Source of the DNA: an uncultured Clostridia bacterium
Lineage (GTDB): Bacteria > Bacillota > Clostridia > Christensenellales > Borkfalkiaceae
Direction: 5' to 3'
Assembly: GCA_944354535.1 (NCBI GenBank)
Contig: CALVPY010000025.1
Span: forward strand, 1-32,089
DNA length: 32,089 nucleotides
Numbering within the stretch: position 1 is the stretch's first letter; each line of letters opens with the position of its first letter. The notes beneath the pieces were generated by a model. It was not told where the DNA came from. It did not search any database and saw nothing but the letters and a program-made list of their open reading frames with translations. Shown piece after piece: positions 20,874-31,909 of the stretch. The translations under genes were made by a program, and so were the position numbers.

Positions 20874-22427
20874 ATGAAAGCAGGATATCAAGCGGGCATC
20901 TTTCTTGCCGTGCTGGCAGCGGCGCTCTATGCCCTGAATGCGCCGCTTTCCAAGCTCTTGCTCGACTTTATGCCCTCTACGCTGATGGCAGGCTTTCTCT
21001 ATCTCGGCTCAGGGCTCGGGATGGGCGCGATCGCACTTGGCAGAAAGGTCTTCCGCCGCGCAGCAAAGGAGAGCCGCCTCACGAAAAAGGAGCTTCCCTT
21101 TACGCTTGCGATGATCGTGCTCGATATCGCGGCGCCCATCTCTTTGATGCTCGGGCTCAAGAGCACGACTGCCGCCAATGCCTCCCTTCTCAACAATTTC
21201 GAGATCGTCGCGACCGCCGTCATTGCGCTTGCCGTCTTCAAGGAGAGTATCCCCCCGCGGCTTTGGGCGGGCATCGTGTTCGTCACGCTCTCGTGTGTGA
21301 TCTTGTCGTTGGAAGACATCGAGGGTCTCCGCTTTTCCTTCGGCTCGCTGTTTATCCTGCTCGCCTGCGTATGCTGGGGATTTGAAAACAACTGCACGAG
21401 GAAGATCTCCTCGAAAGACCCGATGGAGATCGTGCTTCTGAAGGGCATCTTTTCGGGGCTGGGTTCGCTCGTCATCGGGCTTATCCTCGGCGAGCGCATC
21501 ACCGTGCTCTGGAGCGTCTTTGCCGTGCTCGGCGTGGGGCTCGTTGCATACGGACTGAGCATCTTCTTCTATGTGCACGCGCAGCGGCTTCTCGGCGCGG
21601 CGCGGACGAGCGCATATTATGCCGTCTCGCCCTTTCTCGGAACGCTTCTTTCGCTTATCATCTTCCGCGAACTTCCGCACTACACTTACTTTATCGCGCT
21701 TGCCCTGATGGCGGTCGGCGCCTTCCTGTGTGCGGAAGATAAGCCGCTGTTCCGAAAACGAGCCGAACGTGCTGCGTCAAACAAAAATACCCCCTTGACA
21801 GAAGAGGGGAAATCTGTTATACTACAAAACGAAGCGGCGGACGGCACTTTTCCGCAATATGAACTGCCGCTCAACAAGGAGGAACCAATGGACAACAAGT
21901 ATGCTGGCACGCAGACCGAGAAAAACCTCGAAGCGGCTTTTGCAGGAGAATCGCAGGCAAGAAACAAGTACACCTACTTTGCATCCGTTGCCAAAAAAGA
22001 GGGCTATGAGCAGATCGCGGCGCTCTTTTTGAAGACGGCAGACAATGAAAAGGAGCACGCAAAGCTCTGGTTCAAAGAGCTCAAAGGCATCGGCAATACG
22101 CCCGAAAACCTGGCAGCCGCTGCTGCGGGCGAAAACTACGAATGGACGGATATGTATAAGGAGTTCGCCGAGACCGCCGAAAAGGAAGGCTTTAACGAAC
22201 TTGCCGCAAAGTTCCGCCTCGTCGCTGCCATCGAAAAGCATCATGAAGAGCGCTATCGTGCGCTTCTCAAGAACATCGAGCTTGCAGAAGTTTTCGCAAA
22301 GTCCGAAGTCAAAATCTGGGAGTGCCGCAACTGCGGTCATATCGTTGTCGGCACCAAGGCGCCCGAGATCTGTCCGACCTGTGCGCACCCGCAGAGCTTC
22401 TTCGAGATCCACGCCGAAAATTATTGA
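20874..22427 (+). CDS. EamA/DMT-family transporter, ORF running on into rubrerythrin
   Basis: Residues 1 to about 300 form a ten-TM drug/metabolite transporter with two EamA repeats ([19 protein letters not shown]...; [22 protein letters not shown]...; ending [14 protein letters not shown]). RBS GAGGAGGGG. A normal DMT protein would stop soon after, but no stop codon occurs between the last TM and the rubrerythrin start at 21888, which is in the same frame (residue 339). The linker (about 305-338) is the translation of the rubrerythrin promoter and leader. Either a natural 517-aa fusion is made from the upstream promoter in addition to free rubrerythrin, or a stop codon has been lost. Substrate unknown. 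Confidence 0.8.
21795..21823 (+). promoter_or_regulatory. Strong promoter of rubrerythrin inside the transporter ORF
   Basis: TTGACA (21795-21800), 17-bp spacer, TATACT (21818-21823): nearly consensus, located in frame between the transporter and rubrerythrin parts. Confidence 0.88.
21888..22427 (+). CDS. rbr: Rubrerythrin
   Basis: 179 aa, the start supported by AAGGAGG and a dedicated promoter. Diiron ferritin-like domain: [32 protein letters not shown] and [11 protein letters not shown] supply the Glu and His ligands. The C-terminal rubredoxin-like domain has CRNCGH and CPTCAHPQ, the four Fe-binding cysteines. It reduces hydrogen peroxide with electrons from rubredoxin-type donors, an oxidative-stress defence of anaerobes. 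It is also the C-terminal part of the long ORF that starts at 20874. Confidence 0.96.
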
Positions 22428-25365: not shown

Positions 25366-25746
25366 GTGGAGCAATGCAAGGTCGAGATCAAAACGCATAC
25401 AAAGGGAAAGGTCTCACTCTTCCGCGTCCGCGGCGCGTTTGAACGCACCGAACGCGGCCTTGAAGTGAGGTACTCTCACGAAGACGAGGAAGTCCTCCTC
25501 GTTCTCGGAGAGCAAATCCTTTCTATGGAGCGGGAGAGCTTGTCTATGTTCTTTCGGCGCGGGGAAGAGACGGCGGCGCGCATTCGTGCGGGAAGCCATG
25601 AGGGAAGTTTACCCATCGTAACGCGATTCTACGCCCTGAAAGAGTTGAACGGCCTTTACAGCGCAGCCATAAAATACGAGCTGGGGGATCCCGCTCAGAA
25701 ATTCAGTTTGGATATCCGCATCGGTCCGGGTTCGGAGGAGAGATGA
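25366..25746 (+). CDS. DUF1934-like protein (YwiB type)
   Basis: 126 aa with a GTG start at 25366; no in-frame ATG exists upstream. Predominantly beta, with alternating strands (VEIKTHTKG...LEVRYSHEDEE...MFFRRGEE...TRFYALKELNGLYSAAIKYELGD...FSLDIRIG) that fit the calycin-like barrel of DUF1934. Function unknown. First gene of the operon; its stop overlaps the next start (ATGA). Confidence 0.6.
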   Translation: MEQCKVEIKTHTKGKVSLFRVRGAFERTERGLEVRYSHEDEEVLLVLGEQILSMERESLSMFFRRGEETAARIRAGSHEGSLPIVTRFYALKELNGLYSAAIKYELGDPAQKFSLDIRIGPGSEER

Positions 25747-26408
25747 AAATACGATATTTGGGACATTCCTGCTTTTTATTGACCGAGAGTACCGGTACGC
25801 GCATTTTGACCGATCCCTACGGGGATGTCGGCTTCAGGATGCCGCGCGTCGAGGCAGACGTCGTCAGCGTCAGCCACGGCCATTACGACCACAACAACGT
25901 CAAAGCCGTAGGCGGGAACCCAATCGTGCTGGACAAAGAGGGTCAGTACGAAGTCGGCGGTGTGGAGATCATCGCCGTCAAGAGCTATCATGACAATGCA
26001 AACGGCGAAGAGCGCGGCGAGAACCTCATCTTCAAGTTCCGCCTCGACGGCATCGAGGTGTGCCATTTGGGCGACCTCGGAGAGGAATGTTCTTCTTCAC
26101 TCATCGAAATGCTTCTTCCCGTACACGTCCTCCTGATCCCGGTCGGCGGGAAATACACCATCGACTCGGAACAGGCCAAGGAGTATGTGGACCGCATCAT
26201 GCCGTCCATCGTCATTCCCATGCACTATAAGTCCAAGGGGCTTTCTCTGGATATCGATAAGCCGGATAATTTCCTCTCCGAGTTTGAAGCGGAGGATGTG
26301 GAAGAGCCCGGCACCTGTGAGATCGAGCTCACCCGCGACGATATCGACGAGGAAACGACCAAGGTCATTCTGATGGAGCGCGATAAGCATGGCAGAAAGG
26401 ACGCTTGA
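25743..26408 (+). CDS. MBL-fold metal-dependent hydrolase (UPF0173-like)
   Basis: 221 aa. Metal-binding SHGHYDHNN (HxHxDH), then CHLGDLGE, PVGGKYTID and IPMHYK: the reduced metallo-beta-lactamase layout of the UPF0173/UlaG-like group. It begins MKIRYLGHSCFLL, the typical first strand. Substrate unknown. ATGA overlap with the upstream gene; its last 20 bp overlap the start of the rho homologue. Confidence 0.88.
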   Translation: MKIRYLGHSCFLLTESTGTRILTDPYGDVGFRMPRVEADVVSVSHGHYDHNNVKAVGGNPIVLDKEGQYEVGGVEIIAVKSYHDNANGEERGENLIFKFRLDGIEVCHLGDLGEECSSSLIEMLLPVHVLLIPVGGKYTIDSEQAKEYVDRIMPSIVIPMHYKSKGLSLDIDKPDNFLSEFEAEDVEEPGTCEIELTRDDIDEETTKVILMERDKHGRKDA

Positions 26409-27828
26409 AGAGGAGTTCCGAGATTATTTAGAGACACTTCCCATTCAGACGCTCCGTACACTCGGACGTAAATTCGGCAGCCCCGCTTCCAGCAGAAAGA
26501 ATAAACCCGAATGTATCGAAAGCATCATCGAACTTCTGACGGGCAAAGCCGACCCCGTTCCCAACTCGGGCAAAGGCGCACCCGTCAAACAGAACTTTCT
26601 CGATCCTTCCATTATCCGCAGGCTTGAAGAGCTCAGGCTCGCATGGGAAAAGGCTCATAAAATACCGGAGCCACAAAACTACTTTACCGTTCATTCCCCG
26701 AAGCAGCCAAAGAGCCTCTACGATGAACCTGTTTATTCCGGGATATTGGAGATCATGCCGGGCGGTTACGGCTTTTTGCGCAGTCAAAGCTGCCATCCTT
26801 CCAAGAGCGATGTCTTTATCGCGGCACCGCTCGTTCAGTCTCTGCTGCTGAAGGAGGGCGATCTTGTCGCCTGTACGGCAAAGCAGGCAGAAAAAGGTGA
26901 GCCTCCCGCCATGGAGCACCTTTTAAGCGTCAACGGGATGCCCTTTCCCGATCTGTCACAGCGTCCCGCATTCGAGGGATTGACCGCGTGTTATCCGCAG
27001 GAGCGCATCCCGCTTTCTCAAAAGGACAATACGCTTTCCCTTCGCGTCATCGATCTGTTCACGCCCATCGGCAAGGGCCAGCGCGCACTCATTATTGCGC
27101 CTCCTCAGGCAGGAACGACGACGCTGTTCAAAGAGATCGCGCATTCCTGTGCCGCTCTCAGGCCTCAGATCCACCTGATCGTCCTGCTCATAAACGGACG
27201 ACCGGAGGAGATCAACGAGATCAAGAGCACCGTACCGGATGCCGAAGTCGTTTTTTCTTCCTTTGACGAAGACCCGCACCAGCACGTTCGCGCGGCGGAA
27301 CTTACCGTCGCAAGAGCAAAGCGGCTTGCGGAACACGGCAGGGACGTCGTTGTCCTGCTCGACTCGCTCGATCACCTCACTAAGGCGTATCACTACGGAA
27401 CGGAGAACATGGGAAGATCGCTTCCCGGCCGTTTGGACGTCGGGGCGCTCACGATGGCAAAGCGCTTCATGGGAGCAGCCAGGAATACGCGGGAAGCGGG
27501 CAGCATCACCATTGCGGCGACCCTCTATACCGACGGGAGCCGGGCGGGCGACATGATAATGGAAGAGTTCCGGCAAACGGGAAACTGCGAGATCGTTCTC
27601 TCGCGTCAGCTTGCCGCACGACGCATCTATCCCGCCATCGACCTCAGCCGCTCGGGAACGAGGAAAGCAGAACTTTTATTGACGGAGACGGAGCTTTCGG
27701 CAGTTAGGAAGTTATCCGATAAGATCGCCGCGGGTGATCTTATGTCCATCCTCACACTCATGAATAAAACGAAGGACAACACGGAATTCGCTGCAAAGTG
27801 CGATGAAGCGTTTTCTTCCGAAAAGTAA
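26389..27828 (+). CDS. rho: Rho-family protein with degenerate ATPase site
   Basis: 479 aa, homologous over its whole length to transcription terminator Rho. An N-terminal SAP-like helical region (LPIQTLRTLGRKFG) precedes the OB-fold RNA-binding domain (GILEIMPGGYGFLRS...SDVFIA) and the RecA-like core (FTPIGKGQRALIIAPP to SRSGTRKAELLL). The ATP site is altered: Walker A PKAGKT reads P-Q-A-G-T-T (Gln240, Thr243), LIDERPEE reads LINGRPEE (Asn269, Gly270 for Asp and the catalytic Glu), the Q-loop Lys is Arg343, and the R-loop Lys is Arg395. The Walker B Asp325 and the SGTRK arginines remain. Likely ATP hydrolysis is lost or greatly reduced. In an operon with DUF1934, MBL and ROK genes, not next to rpmE. 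Confidence 0.88.
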   Translation: MAERTLEEEFRDYLETLPIQTLRTLGRKFGSPASSRKNKPECIESIIELLTGKADPVPNSGKGAPVKQNFLDPSIIRRLEELRLAWEKAHKIPEPQNYFTVHSPKQPKSLYDEPVYSGILEIMPGGYGFLRSQSCHPSKSDVFIAAPLVQSLLLKEGDLVACTAKQAEKGEPPAMEHLLSVNGMPFPDLSQRPAFEGLTACYPQERIPLSQKDNTLSLRVIDLFTPIGKGQRALIIAPPQAGTTTLFKEIAHSCAALRPQIHLIVLLINGRPEEINEIKSTVPDAEVVFSSFDEDPHQHVRAAELTVARAKRLAEHGRDVVVLLDSLDHLTKAYHYGTENMGRSLPGRLDVGALTMAKRFMGAARNTREAGSITIAATLYTDGSRAGDMIMEEFRQTGNCEIVLSRQLAARRIYPAIDLSRSGTRKAELLLTETELSAVRKLSDKIAAGDLMSILTLMNKTKDNTEFAAKCDEAFSSEK

Positions 27829-27839
27829 AAGGAGATATC

Positions 27840-28787
27840 ATGATCATCGGAATCGATCTGGGCGGTATGTCCGCCAAGGGCGCCATCCTGCAGGATGGGA
27901 AGCTTTTAGGAAAGACTCGCGTCAAGACTTCGGCAGACCGTTCTGCCGAAGAGACCGCTTTGGAACTCGTGCGCCTTGCCATGGACACGGCAGAAAACGC
28001 AGGCGTTGATTTTTCCAAAATAAATGCGATCGGCATCGGCTCTCCCGGCGTCATCGACAGTAAGAACGGTACCGTCGTCAACTGGACCAATTTCGGCTGG
28101 AAGGACGTTCCTCTCGCGCAGATCATCCGCGAAAGGACGGGCAAGCAGGTATTCGTTACCAACGATGCCAATGCGGCGGCGCTCGGTGAGGCGAAGTACG
28201 GCGCAGGCAAGAATTATTCCGACAGCATCCTCATTACCCTCGGCACGGGAGTCGGCGGGGGGATCATCCTCGGCGGAAAACTCTTTGAAGGCTACAGGAG
28301 CGCGGGTGCCGAGATCGGCCATATGGTCATCCGCCAGAACGGCAGGATCTGCTCCTGCGGGAGGCGCGGCTGTTTTGAAGTGTACGCGTCTGCAAGGGCG
28401 CTGCTCGAAATGACGCGCGATGCGATGCAGGCCGAGCTTACGAGCAAGATGTGGGAGTACGCAAAGACGCTCGATGAGGTCGACGGAAAAACCGTCTTCG
28501 ATGCGCTCCGTGCAGGAGACGAAACGGCGGAAAAGGTGCTTCACGAATACGTTGCCAATCTCGGCGAAGGCATCTTAAATCTTGCCGCAGTTTTCCGCCC
28601 GCAGGCGTTCATCTTAGGCGGCGGCATTTCGGCGGAGAAGGAGACGCTTCTAAAGCCTCTTCGTGACTATGTCTATCCCCGTCTGTATGTTTCGGAAAAC
28701 TACGCGCCGCTCGAGATCTGCTGCGCGGAACTCGGAAACGATGCGGGACTTTACGGCGCCGCACAGTACGCCTACGACTGCCTCTGA
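27840..28787 (+). CDS. glk: ROK-family sugar kinase, probable glucokinase
   Basis: 315 aa. DLGGMSAKGAIL (phosphate-1), GIGSPGVID, NDANAAALGE with the catalytic Asp, TLGTGVGGGII, GAEIGHM and the zinc motif CSCGRRGCFE (CxCGxxGCxE) match ROK glucokinases of Firmicutes, which phosphorylate glucose with ATP. No N-terminal HTH, so not a ROK repressor. Good RBS AAAGGAG. Follows the rho homologue by 11 bp. Confidence 0.9.
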   Translation: MIIGIDLGGMSAKGAILQDGKLLGKTRVKTSADRSAEETALELVRLAMDTAENAGVDFSKINAIGIGSPGVIDSKNGTVVNWTNFGWKDVPLAQIIRERTGKQVFVTNDANAAALGEAKYGAGKNYSDSILITLGTGVGGGIILGGKLFEGYRSAGAEIGHMVIRQNGRICSCGRRGCFEVYASARALLEMTRDAMQAELTSKMWEYAKTLDEVDGKTVFDALRAGDETAEKVLHEYVANLGEGILNLAAVFRPQAFILGGGISAEKETLLKPLRDYVYPRLYVSENYAPLEICCAELGNDAGLYGAAQYAYDCL

Positions 28788-30479: not shown

Positions 30480-31742
30480 TTATTCGCCCTTATAGTTGAA
30501 TACGATTTCTGCATTGAGCAGTTCGTCGTTCCAACTGCCGAAGTCGATCTGTTCCCACTCCGCCTCGCTGCCCATATAGTAGACGTTCGTAAGACTGCTG
30601 CAAGCCATGAATGCATAGTCATCAATCGCCGTAACGGAATCGGGGATGACGATGCTTGTAAGGCTATCACAATCTTGGAATGCCTGCTTTGCAATGTATG
30701 TAACGCCTTGTGAAATTTCGATCTTCGTCAAGTTGATGCTGCCTGCGAATGCCGCAGCCCCAATGTGAGTGACACCTTCGGGAATATCGATTTGCATCAA
30801 TCCGGTACCACCAAATGCACCCATACCGATGGATGTGACGCTGTCGGGGAGGGTAATGCTCTCTAAGGCAGTACAAGTTGTAAAGCCCATAATGCTGATT
30901 TTTGTGAGAGACAGGGGCAATACGACTTCCTTTAAGGAAGAACAAGCAACGAAAGCGCGACCGAAAGCTTGTGCGCTGTCCGGAAGAACGACTCTTTGGA
31001 CGTGGCATCGGGAAGAAGGTGAAATTCCAACGTCTAAATCAATATGATCTAAGAAAGCCATCCCTGCAATTCCATATGTTCCCGCCTTTACGGTATAATC
31101 GGTCGGAAGAGTTTCGTTGGTGGCAAGCAGCCAGTCGTTCATATACAGTGCGCCGTCTTCCCAATTGTCGGGATCTTGATAGAAGGCACAATTTTCCCAA
31201 GCGACCGAAACAATAGTATCCTGATTGCGTGGAAGACGGATATCTGTCAATGAGGGAAGCTCGGGAGCATAAAGCTCTTGGGTAGTGATCGTGACGATAC
31301 TATCAGGAAAATATAAACTCGTAATGGGTCCGCTTAGCTCGTCTAAAAAAGCCATGCGAACTGCTAAGCCATTGTATTCCGAAGGGATGACAACATCCGT
31401 ATCGGAGCAGCTCCCCATCCCGATAAACATATAGCAAGGAGCATAATTTTGCCCAAACAACTCAGCCATATATTCTGCCATATAGCTGTCTTCTGTGATA
31501 AGCTCAAACTCCAGCCCTTCGGAAGGTTCGGGGGCGGGTTCGGGCGTTTCTTCCCCGCCGGGCTGTTCACTTCCTCCTGGTTGCTCACTGCCGCCGGGCT
31601 GTTCGGTTCCGCCCGGCTGATCGCCGCCGGGGGTGACGACGCCCGTGTTTCCCTTATCGTCCGTCGGCGCGCAGGCGGCAACGCCGAAGATGCAGGAAAG
31701 TGCCATTACAAAGCATAACAGCATGGTCAAAAATTTCTTCAT
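30480..31742 (-). CDS. BspA-like leucine-rich-repeat lipoprotein
   Basis: 420 aa from the ATG at 31742 (GGGAGG upstream). A lipoprotein signal peptide (KKFLTMLLCFVMALSCIFGVAAC, mature Cys about 23) is followed by a repetitive linker of EQPGGS/T units and a Pro/Glu stretch. The C-terminal ~250 residues contain BspA-type LRR_5 repeats, for example ITLPDSVTSIGMGAFGG, IDIPEGVTHIGAAAFAG, IEISQGVTYIAKQAFQD and IVIPDSVTAIDDYAFMA. Such surface proteins mediate adhesion or host interaction; no cell-wall anchor is needed because of the lipid. A long structured leader precedes it. Confidence 0.9.
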   Translation of the reverse strand: MKKFLTMLLCFVMALSCIFGVAACAPTDDKGNTGVVTPGGDQPGGTEQPGGSEQPGGSEQPGGEETPEPAPEPSEGLEFELITEDSYMAEYMAELFGQNYAPCYMFIGMGSCSDTDVVIPSEYNGLAVRMAFLDELSGPITSLYFPDSIVTITTQELYAPELPSLTDIRLPRNQDTIVSVAWENCAFYQDPDNWEDGALYMNDWLLATNETLPTDYTVKAGTYGIAGMAFLDHIDLDVGISPSSRCHVQRVVLPDSAQAFGRAFVACSSLKEVVLPLSLTKISIMGFTTCTALESITLPDSVTSIGMGAFGGTGLMQIDIPEGVTHIGAAAFAGSINLTKIEISQGVTYIAKQAFQDCDSLTSIVIPDSVTAIDDYAFMACSSLTNVYYMGSEAEWEQIDFGSWNDELLNAEIVFNYKGE

Positions 31743-31909
31743 AGGGTTCCTCCCAAATGTATTTTTGAGGGCAGAAAAAGGCGTGCCGCCTTTCGGAGAC
31801 ACGCCCTGCATTGTATCTCCGATTTGTTGGGTACAAACTTTCACATAACGGAAAATAGAGATACGAAATGCCGATCCGTACCCGTTATGTGAATATTCAG
31901 TTTGTACCC
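31743..31909 (-). ncRNA. Structured 5' leader of the LRR lipoprotein gene (attenuator-like)
   Basis: The predicted transcript starts at 31909 with GGGTACAAACT, which pairs with 31829-31839 (11 bp); next to it 31882-31891 pairs with 31842-31851 (10 bp). A 6-bp stem CGGAGA/TCTCCG (31816-31821 with 31794-31799) then overlaps a terminator-like hairpin GGCGTG/CACGCC plus TTTTT (31775-31805), so the two cannot fully form together. The frame upstream of the ATG is open, but its extension is this leader, not protein. Confidence 0.5.
31775..31805 (-). terminator. Possible attenuator terminator in the LRR leader
   Basis: Minus strand GGCGTG, 3-nt bulge, CCG, loop, CGG, CACGCC, TTTTT, located 33 bases before the start codon. 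Confidence 0.5.

Follow-up and report, generated by a model that had tools for sequence, protein, structure and literature searches.

The window analysed here, a stretch of 32,089 nucleotides from an uncultured Clostridia bacterium, carries a rho gene whose product has lost the residues of the ATP-driven motor and retains those of the primary RNA site. Judging from its sequence, we consider it somewhat probable (at a rough probability of 0.57) that this Rho is an ATP-independent RNA- or polymerase-binding protein retained for a non-motor role. Rho seems able, in other words, to persist as a protein without its motor. The original prediction of a pseudo-ATPase Rho that may bind RNA is supported, in that the catalytic residues are gone and the primary RNA-site residues are present; the antiterminator and RNA-chaperone roles that it named are candidates.

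Motor and RNA-site residues of the window Rho

The rho gene (Table 1) begins with ATG and runs through 479 codons with no internal stop. Its product scores above the cut-off of the NCBIfam Rho model NF006886 (382 bits versus 315) and below that of TIGR00767 (371 bits versus 509), as do nine other sampled genomes of the genus for the latter model. The top eleven rows among sequence matches to solved structures are Rho proteins, and all 50 PDB matches listed for the AF2 model (mean pLDDT 89.4) are Rho structures or complexes; the AF2 model of the heavily eroded Rho of genome G046 likewise folds as Rho. Homology to Rho, and the predicted fold, extend across both the RNA-binding and the RecA domains.

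Table 1. Features of the window rho gene and its neighbours (window positions).
Feature	Position	Strand	Evidence or remark
rho gene, 479 aa	26389-27828	+	sole Rho found in genome; motor residues lost
N-terminal helix-bundle region, residues 1-113	26389..26727	+	AF2 helices 6-14, 19-29, 33-36, 39-51
OB-fold RNA-binding domain, residues 117-184	26737..26940	+	Pfam PF07497, 55.7 bits, cut-off 27
Primary RNA-site residues kept: Y127, F129, R131, D141, F143	26767..26817	+	E. coli 62, 64, 66, 78, 80
P-loop APPQAGTTT; K181Q, K184T	27097..27123	+	alignment to E. coli Rho; four nearest sisters retain both lysines
LINGRPEE; D210N, E211G (catalytic Glu gone)	27187..27210	+	alignment to E. coli Rho
Walker B LLDS, Asp265 kept	27355..27366	+	alignment to E. 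coli Rho
Q-loop GRSLPGRLD; T286P, G288R (K283R common in other families)	27412..27438	+	
R-loop DGSRAGD; T323 deleted, M327A, D328G (K326R usual in genus)	27532..27552	+	
SGTRK, R366 kept	27652..27666	+	alignment to E. coli Rho
Metallo-beta-lactamase-fold hydrolase, upstream of rho	25743..26408	+	order and strand shared with four nearest sisters
ROK-family gene, downstream of rho	27840..28787	+	order and strand shared with four nearest sisters

Residues were mapped by aligning the window protein to the Rho of E. coli MG1655, window residues being counted from the ATG. The reading of the P-loop as PQAGTT and of the following motif as LINGRPEE, in an intact frame, is borne out by the open reading frame and by this alignment. 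Neither the Walker A lysines nor the catalytic Glu is present: K181 corresponds to Q240 (27106-27108), K184 to T243 (27115-27117), and D210 and E211 to N269 and G270 (27193-27198). The translocation residues of the Q- and R-loops are altered as well, with G288 replaced by R348. P297A is a further change in the protein. The lysine-to-arginine replacements in the two loops, to which the original prediction had drawn attention, are both there; they are not unusual, as arginine occupies the place of K326 in 89 of 102 genus rho rows and 12 of 13 other-family rows, and that of K283 in 10 of the latter 13 and 7 of the 102 genus rows (four of those degenerate), and by themselves they would not count as a loss. 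In E. coli Rho the altered positions are needed, and serve to bind the ATP phosphates, to activate water and to pull RNA. With these residues changed the window protein would be unable to hydrolyse ATP or to translocate, and hence to carry out classic termination; we think it very probable that it is catalytically dead.

The changes are unevenly distributed. Of the 146 columns with a conservation of 97% or more among 83 canonical Rhos of the genus, the window Rho alters 26: 17 of the 59 within six catalytic or loop stretches, as delimited by us, versus 9 of the 87 others (Fisher p 0.007). All five equivalents of Y62, F64, R66, D78 and F80 carry the canonical genus choice, while E108 and Y110 differ in the window Rho and likewise in the canonical Rhos of the genus; in the N-terminal bundle 10 of 10 conserved columns are kept. 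Also retained are D265 (D325 of the window protein), T185, R212, R353, R366 and K367, so that the earlier statement that the fold, the RNA-binding domain, the Walker B Asp and SGTRK survive agrees with the alignment, with Pfam and with the predicted fold.

Recurrence and selection within the genus

Among the 103 genomes of the genus that were searched, Rho is present in 100; a repeated search with eroded forms also found none in the other three (70-79% complete). Among readable genomes, 10 of 99 lack K181, 7 of 98 lack K184 and 7 of 98 lack E211, each of the seven K184 losses being accompanied by loss of K181. The ten genomes without K181 are G000 (the window), G016, G020, G046, G050, G052, G056, G057, G060 and G062, of which G052 and G062 are the mildest cases. 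On a species tree of ValS and RpoB for 30 of the 103 genomes (the ten degenerates, G074 and a further 19, the selection being ours), the degenerates do not form one clade and are scattered among canonical species. Eight losses are implied if no reversal is assumed and the sister pairs G046/G020 and G052/G062 are each counted once, or possibly seven, as G052, G062 and G056 are joined with the canonical G017 on nodes with support of 57 and 40. In the Rho gene tree some of the most eroded copies group with one from another family; this clustering is probably due to long-branch attraction, and the losses were therefore counted on the ValS and RpoB tree. The gene tree and the analysis of conserved columns excluded nine Rho fragments of less than 400 aa.

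G060 and its canonical sister G012 are 99.9% identical in RpoB and 96% in ValS, and 65% in Rho. Erosion is graded, from the near-canonical G074 (D210G) to the heavily eroded G046 and G020, and the most eroded copies also lose RNA-site residues (F64I and R66H in G046). When the ten lineages are pooled, the cells kept at columns conserved in the 83 canonical Rhos amount to 98 of 100 in the N-terminal bundle (a comparison of just 10 columns per lineage), 170 of 210 in the RNA domain and 713 of 1070 in the ATPase domain, the cells of related species not being independent. At the equivalents of E. coli positions 62, 64, 66, 78 and 80, between 8 and 10 of the 10 lineages agree with the canonical residue. 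Most of the columns lost in at least half of the lineages belong to the P-loop, the region around E211, or the Q- and R-loops along with the residues that directly follow the R-loop; four belong to the RNA-binding domain and linker.

Selection was evaluated over 30 genomes with a codon model having a shared neutral time and a separate ω for each domain. The values for the N-terminal, RNA and ATPase domains were 0.214, 0.150 and 0.092 on the other branches, and 0.120, 0.216 and 0.212 on the ten degenerate terminal branches; all are rough, since the terminal branches are long and cover periods on either side of the loss, and since synonymous sites approach saturation (t of about 1-12 neutral changes per codon). 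The lnL of the full model was −33442.7, versus −33483.7 with the ATPase ratio tied, −33459.6 with the N-terminal ratio tied and −33707.7 with a neutral ATPase domain; twice the lnL difference amounted to 82 when the ATPase domain was given its own ratio, to 34 for the N-terminal domain and to 12.5 for the RNA domain, and to 530 against a neutral ATPase domain. On the degenerate branches the ATPase domain is relaxed (ω from 0.09 to 0.21) yet far from neutral; the N-terminal domain, for the branches as a set, is not relaxed and is if anything tighter, and there it is the region with the strongest constraint. Four lineages were also fitted singly, against backgrounds near 0.17, 0.16 and 0.12. The window branch gave 0.056, 0.18 and 0.145 (N-terminal, RNA, ATPase), G060 0.067, 0.149 and 0.231, G020 0.064, 0.132 and 0.091, and G046 0.188, 0.289 and 0.278; there is no N-terminal tightening in G046 (0.188 versus 0.168) and no ATPase relaxation in G020 (0.091 versus 0.121).

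Canonical Rhos of the genus evolve fast too. Those of G064 and G043 are 76% identical, versus 99.5% for RpoB and 97.8% for ValS, and their synonymous divergence is 1.24 in rho versus 0.17 in the neighbouring ROK gene (loci L042-L045), which may reflect recombination at the locus. Since Rho is fast even in canonical members, the relaxation is genus-wide. G111, with 4% contamination, has two rho pieces on separate contigs (L072 and L090), one full and one partial.

Eroded Rhos across the order

The order was sampled with 198 genomes, of which 197 have a completeness of 90% or more and low contamination. A search with TIGR00767 gave some match, often weak, in 186 and none in 12. Twenty-two genomes, nearly all chosen for their weak matches, were searched again, and 18 of them read as carrying eroded Rhos; the other four were two canonical Rhos (G119 and G139), a piece at a contig edge with canonical motifs (G253) and another ATPase (G161). 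Some members of family f4 and of genus g74 retain a GKT. In genus g18, which belongs to f1, the family of the window, five of six lack DERPEE, and four of those five have a P-loop-like motif.

Relatives were also sought with an alignment in which three families (f25, f28 and g18 of f1) were represented by eight eroded proteins. In f25 a relative of 361-477 codons, stop to stop, was found in all 16 sampled genomes, three of them contributing to the query alignment; [AGSC]x4GK[ST] and DERPEE are absent from all 16, and a bare GK[ST] occurs in three, away from the place of the P-loop. In f28, 13 of 15 genomes were matched: ten matches were taken as eroded Rho (two of them in the query alignment), and the remaining three look like ATP-synthase subunits. 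The sole match to the P-loop pattern in f28, in G224, lies near the N terminus. The single f26 genome also gave a match in the eroded-Rho search. No Rho was found in g13 of f13 (0/2; 95-96% complete) or in g86 of f28 (0/2); G156, of another f13 genus, has a canonical one.

The f25 proteins are most similar to each other in the N-terminal bundle. Pfam searches on nine eroded proteins placed Rho_RNA_bind above its cut-off in six, ATP-synt_ab in four and Rho_N in two. For three f25 triplets (8 genomes) ω was 0.03-0.04 in the N-terminal part, 0.08-0.10 in the OB domain and 0.07-0.09 in the RecA remnant, each fit having one branch at the upper time bound of 12.2; a fourth triplet gave boundary values only. 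At four-fold sites three close pairs were 0.43-0.51 identical versus 0.30-0.32 expected at saturation, and a fourth pair 0.20 versus 0.25; the amino-acid identities of the four pairs are 0.66, 0.55, 0.52 and 0.41. The fits on these eight f25 genomes indicate purifying selection on their motorless Rhos, the estimate being a rough one with synonymous sites near saturation. As no sampled member of the family still has the motor, the constraint has most likely been exerted since its loss. Overall, loss of the motor is recurrent and in places old, and in f25 the motorless form looks lasting.

Eight of the 16 f25 proteins (e.g., L344 and L327), and also the canonical Rho of G139, have a [KR]G[RA]PxK motif after the N-terminal bundle, which we take to be somewhat AT-hook-like. 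In three f28 loci examined, from two genera (L337, L340 and L341, of G130, G166 and G224), secA is no more than about 1 kb away from the eroded rho. Among the top 80 of 587 rows of an alignment-based scan for relatives, the first two ranks, both at 41%, go to Christensenella sp. UBA1259 and Ca. Stercoripulliclostridium merdipullorum, and the eighth, at 38%, to Ca. Limihabitans; the window protein alone, used as the query, yielded no named relatives. The genus would belong near Christensenellales and in a gut setting.

Interpretation, alternatives and known systems

According to the interpretation that we favour, Rho in the window has become a pseudoenzyme with neither ATP hydrolysis nor translocation nor classic termination, and its gene would be kept because the protein still grips RNA through the primary site of the OB fold, the N-terminal domain providing a hold on nucleic acid or polymerase. 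Such an ATP-free factor, bound to RNA or polymerase, could shield, pause or occupy transcripts, and the state would have been reached repeatedly in this clostridial order once the need for Rho-driven termination had relaxed. A broader proposal, for and against which we see even odds, is that there is a motorless class of Rho, in which a helicase was repeatedly, and permanently in one family or more, made into an ATP-independent binder of RNA and polymerase, with the N-terminal bundle as its most strongly selected part. If true, this would imply a motor-free function of Rho, which could be to dock on RNA polymerase and hold it in the absence of translocation. Motorless Rhos under selection would separate the binding role of Rho, which has been studied as an ATP-driven motor, from its pulling role, a question hard to settle with mutants where rho is essential; pairs of motor-dead and canonical Rhos in close sister species are ready-made comparisons.

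The strongest competing explanation is a staged decay, in which Rho is dispensable in the genus, the motor goes first because its constraint is all-or-none, and the window copy is transient, on the way to being lost, and without a role; it is possible and in our judgement less likely. It would account for the graded series from G074 to G046 and G020, for the relatives in which no Rho was found (2/2 in both g13 and g86) and for the unusually fast evolution of canonical copies; against it, the ten degenerate branches jointly reject neutrality in the ATPase and N-terminal domains, the latter is not relaxed in the degenerate set, the reading frames, 438-493 codons from stop to stop, remain open with loop deletions in frame, and the motorless form is found throughout the f25 sample. 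Base composition bears on the same point. According to PMC13323073, genes are expected to lose their purine excess when Rho termination ceases, and gene purine content in B. subtilis is given as 54%. In 10 degenerate and 10 canonical genomes (22-72 kb each, with genes called by an in-house codon score) mean purine was 0.520 and 0.514, respectively (p 0.21). The corresponding shares of C-rich windows were 0.175 and 0.225 (p 0.43), and the two differences run counter to the prediction. The range of purine content over the 20 genomes was 0.498-0.538, mostly low in both classes with respect to the B. subtilis value, as decay would have it; because of these low values in both classes we regard the comparison as uninformative. 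The purine content of valS and rpoB showed no clear difference by eye in 30 genomes. Joint loss of NusG was considered as another correlate and rejected, as NusG is present in 33 of the 34 genomes searched, including 8 degenerate genomes of the genus and 16 of f25; the sole miss is G043, canonical and 84% complete.

It is improbable that termination activity has survived in the protein on the basis of an unorthodox ATP site. The retained Walker B Asp, R212, R353, R366 and predicted fold would suit such an enzyme, and so would the ATPase ω of the window branch (0.145), which barely exceeds its background of 0.119; both lysines of the P-loop, however, are altered together with the catalytic Glu and the two loops, and in the genus K184 has changed in just 7 of 98 readable genomes and never without K181.

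The original prediction had also envisaged a partner of a second Rho, and a canonical second copy could in principle do the work while the window Rho serves as a regulator or as a subunit of mixed rings. The genome is 92.8% complete in 53 contigs, so that a second gene could be missing from it; the search for a canonical rho found this Rho and no other. Two further matches, weak (5e-10 and 3e-4) and 2 kb apart, look like ATP-synthase subunits. No canonical second Rho appears among the matches listed (down to E 1e-4) for the other nine degenerate genomes of the genus, 80-95% complete, and coexistence with a canonical Rho is thus not what we observe. Moreover, the window gene occupies the place of the canonical one. 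The nearest sisters, G059, G064, G043 and G065, have a canonical rho 60-67% identical to the window Rho, and all share with the window the order and strand of a hypothetical gene, the hydrolase, rho and the ROK gene, with identities of 93-95% for the hydrolase and 88-90% for the ROK protein. Since its neighbours are those of the sisters' canonical rho, the window gene is the orthologue, altered in place, and we regard the two-Rho arrangement as very improbable.

An artefact of assembly or sequencing, or a contaminant contig, is very improbable in spite of the 53 contigs and the canonical sisters, since 26 conserved columns are altered in an intact frame, the flanking genes match one sister clade in identity and order, and there are independent cases in other genomes. 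The related concern that canonical residues in sister genomes would reduce the window Rho to a single mutant or an error holds in its premise, as the nearest sisters are indeed canonical, but the loss recurs independently in other species and the window branch does not look neutral, so that a lone mutant or error explains the data poorly.

The retained, non-motor Rho that we favour can be compared with known systems. It shares with canonical Rho (E. coli; NF006886/TIGR00767) the order of domains, the predicted fold, the primary RNA-site residues, the Walker B Asp and SGTRK, and differs in the P-loop lysines, the catalytic Glu, the Q-loop Gly and the R-loop, and in falling below the TIGR00767 cut-off. 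Inactive E. coli Rho P297S has been used to occupy or mask a site on the polymerase (PMC8964686); it resembles the window Rho, which carries P297A, in being motor-dead, and is taken to sit on RNA polymerase, but it is a laboratory mutant, whereas the window Rho is a natural and sole copy whose binding to polymerase is putative. In T. thermophilus the productive contact with polymerase is on the C-terminal side of Rho, and an N-terminal contact is judged unlikely to be relevant to termination (PMC9908020), which counts against a simple story of N-terminal docking. Bacteria described as lacking Rho in PMC13323073 (some Bacilli) and PMC13289151 (cyanobacteria) are similar in that Rho-driven termination is presumably absent; here, unlike there, a Rho-derived protein is kept and apparently selected, and the purine-bias signature of loss was not seen in the 20 genomes. 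The short second Rho of NF041509 (paralog_Rho2) is another atypical form, to which the window protein scores 337 bits, far below the cut-off of 628; NF041509 describes a paralogue and a short form, whereas the window Rho is the only copy found and has an N-terminal region. Within the literature searched, we found no report of a natural motorless Rho.

Two other features of the window are mentioned for completeness. An EamA transporter and a rubrerythrin with its rubredoxin-like domain (Pfam) share a single open frame at 20874-22427 (+), which is either a real fusion or the result of a lost stop. A BspA-type leucine-rich-repeat protein (Pfam LRR_5) is encoded at 30480-31844 (−).
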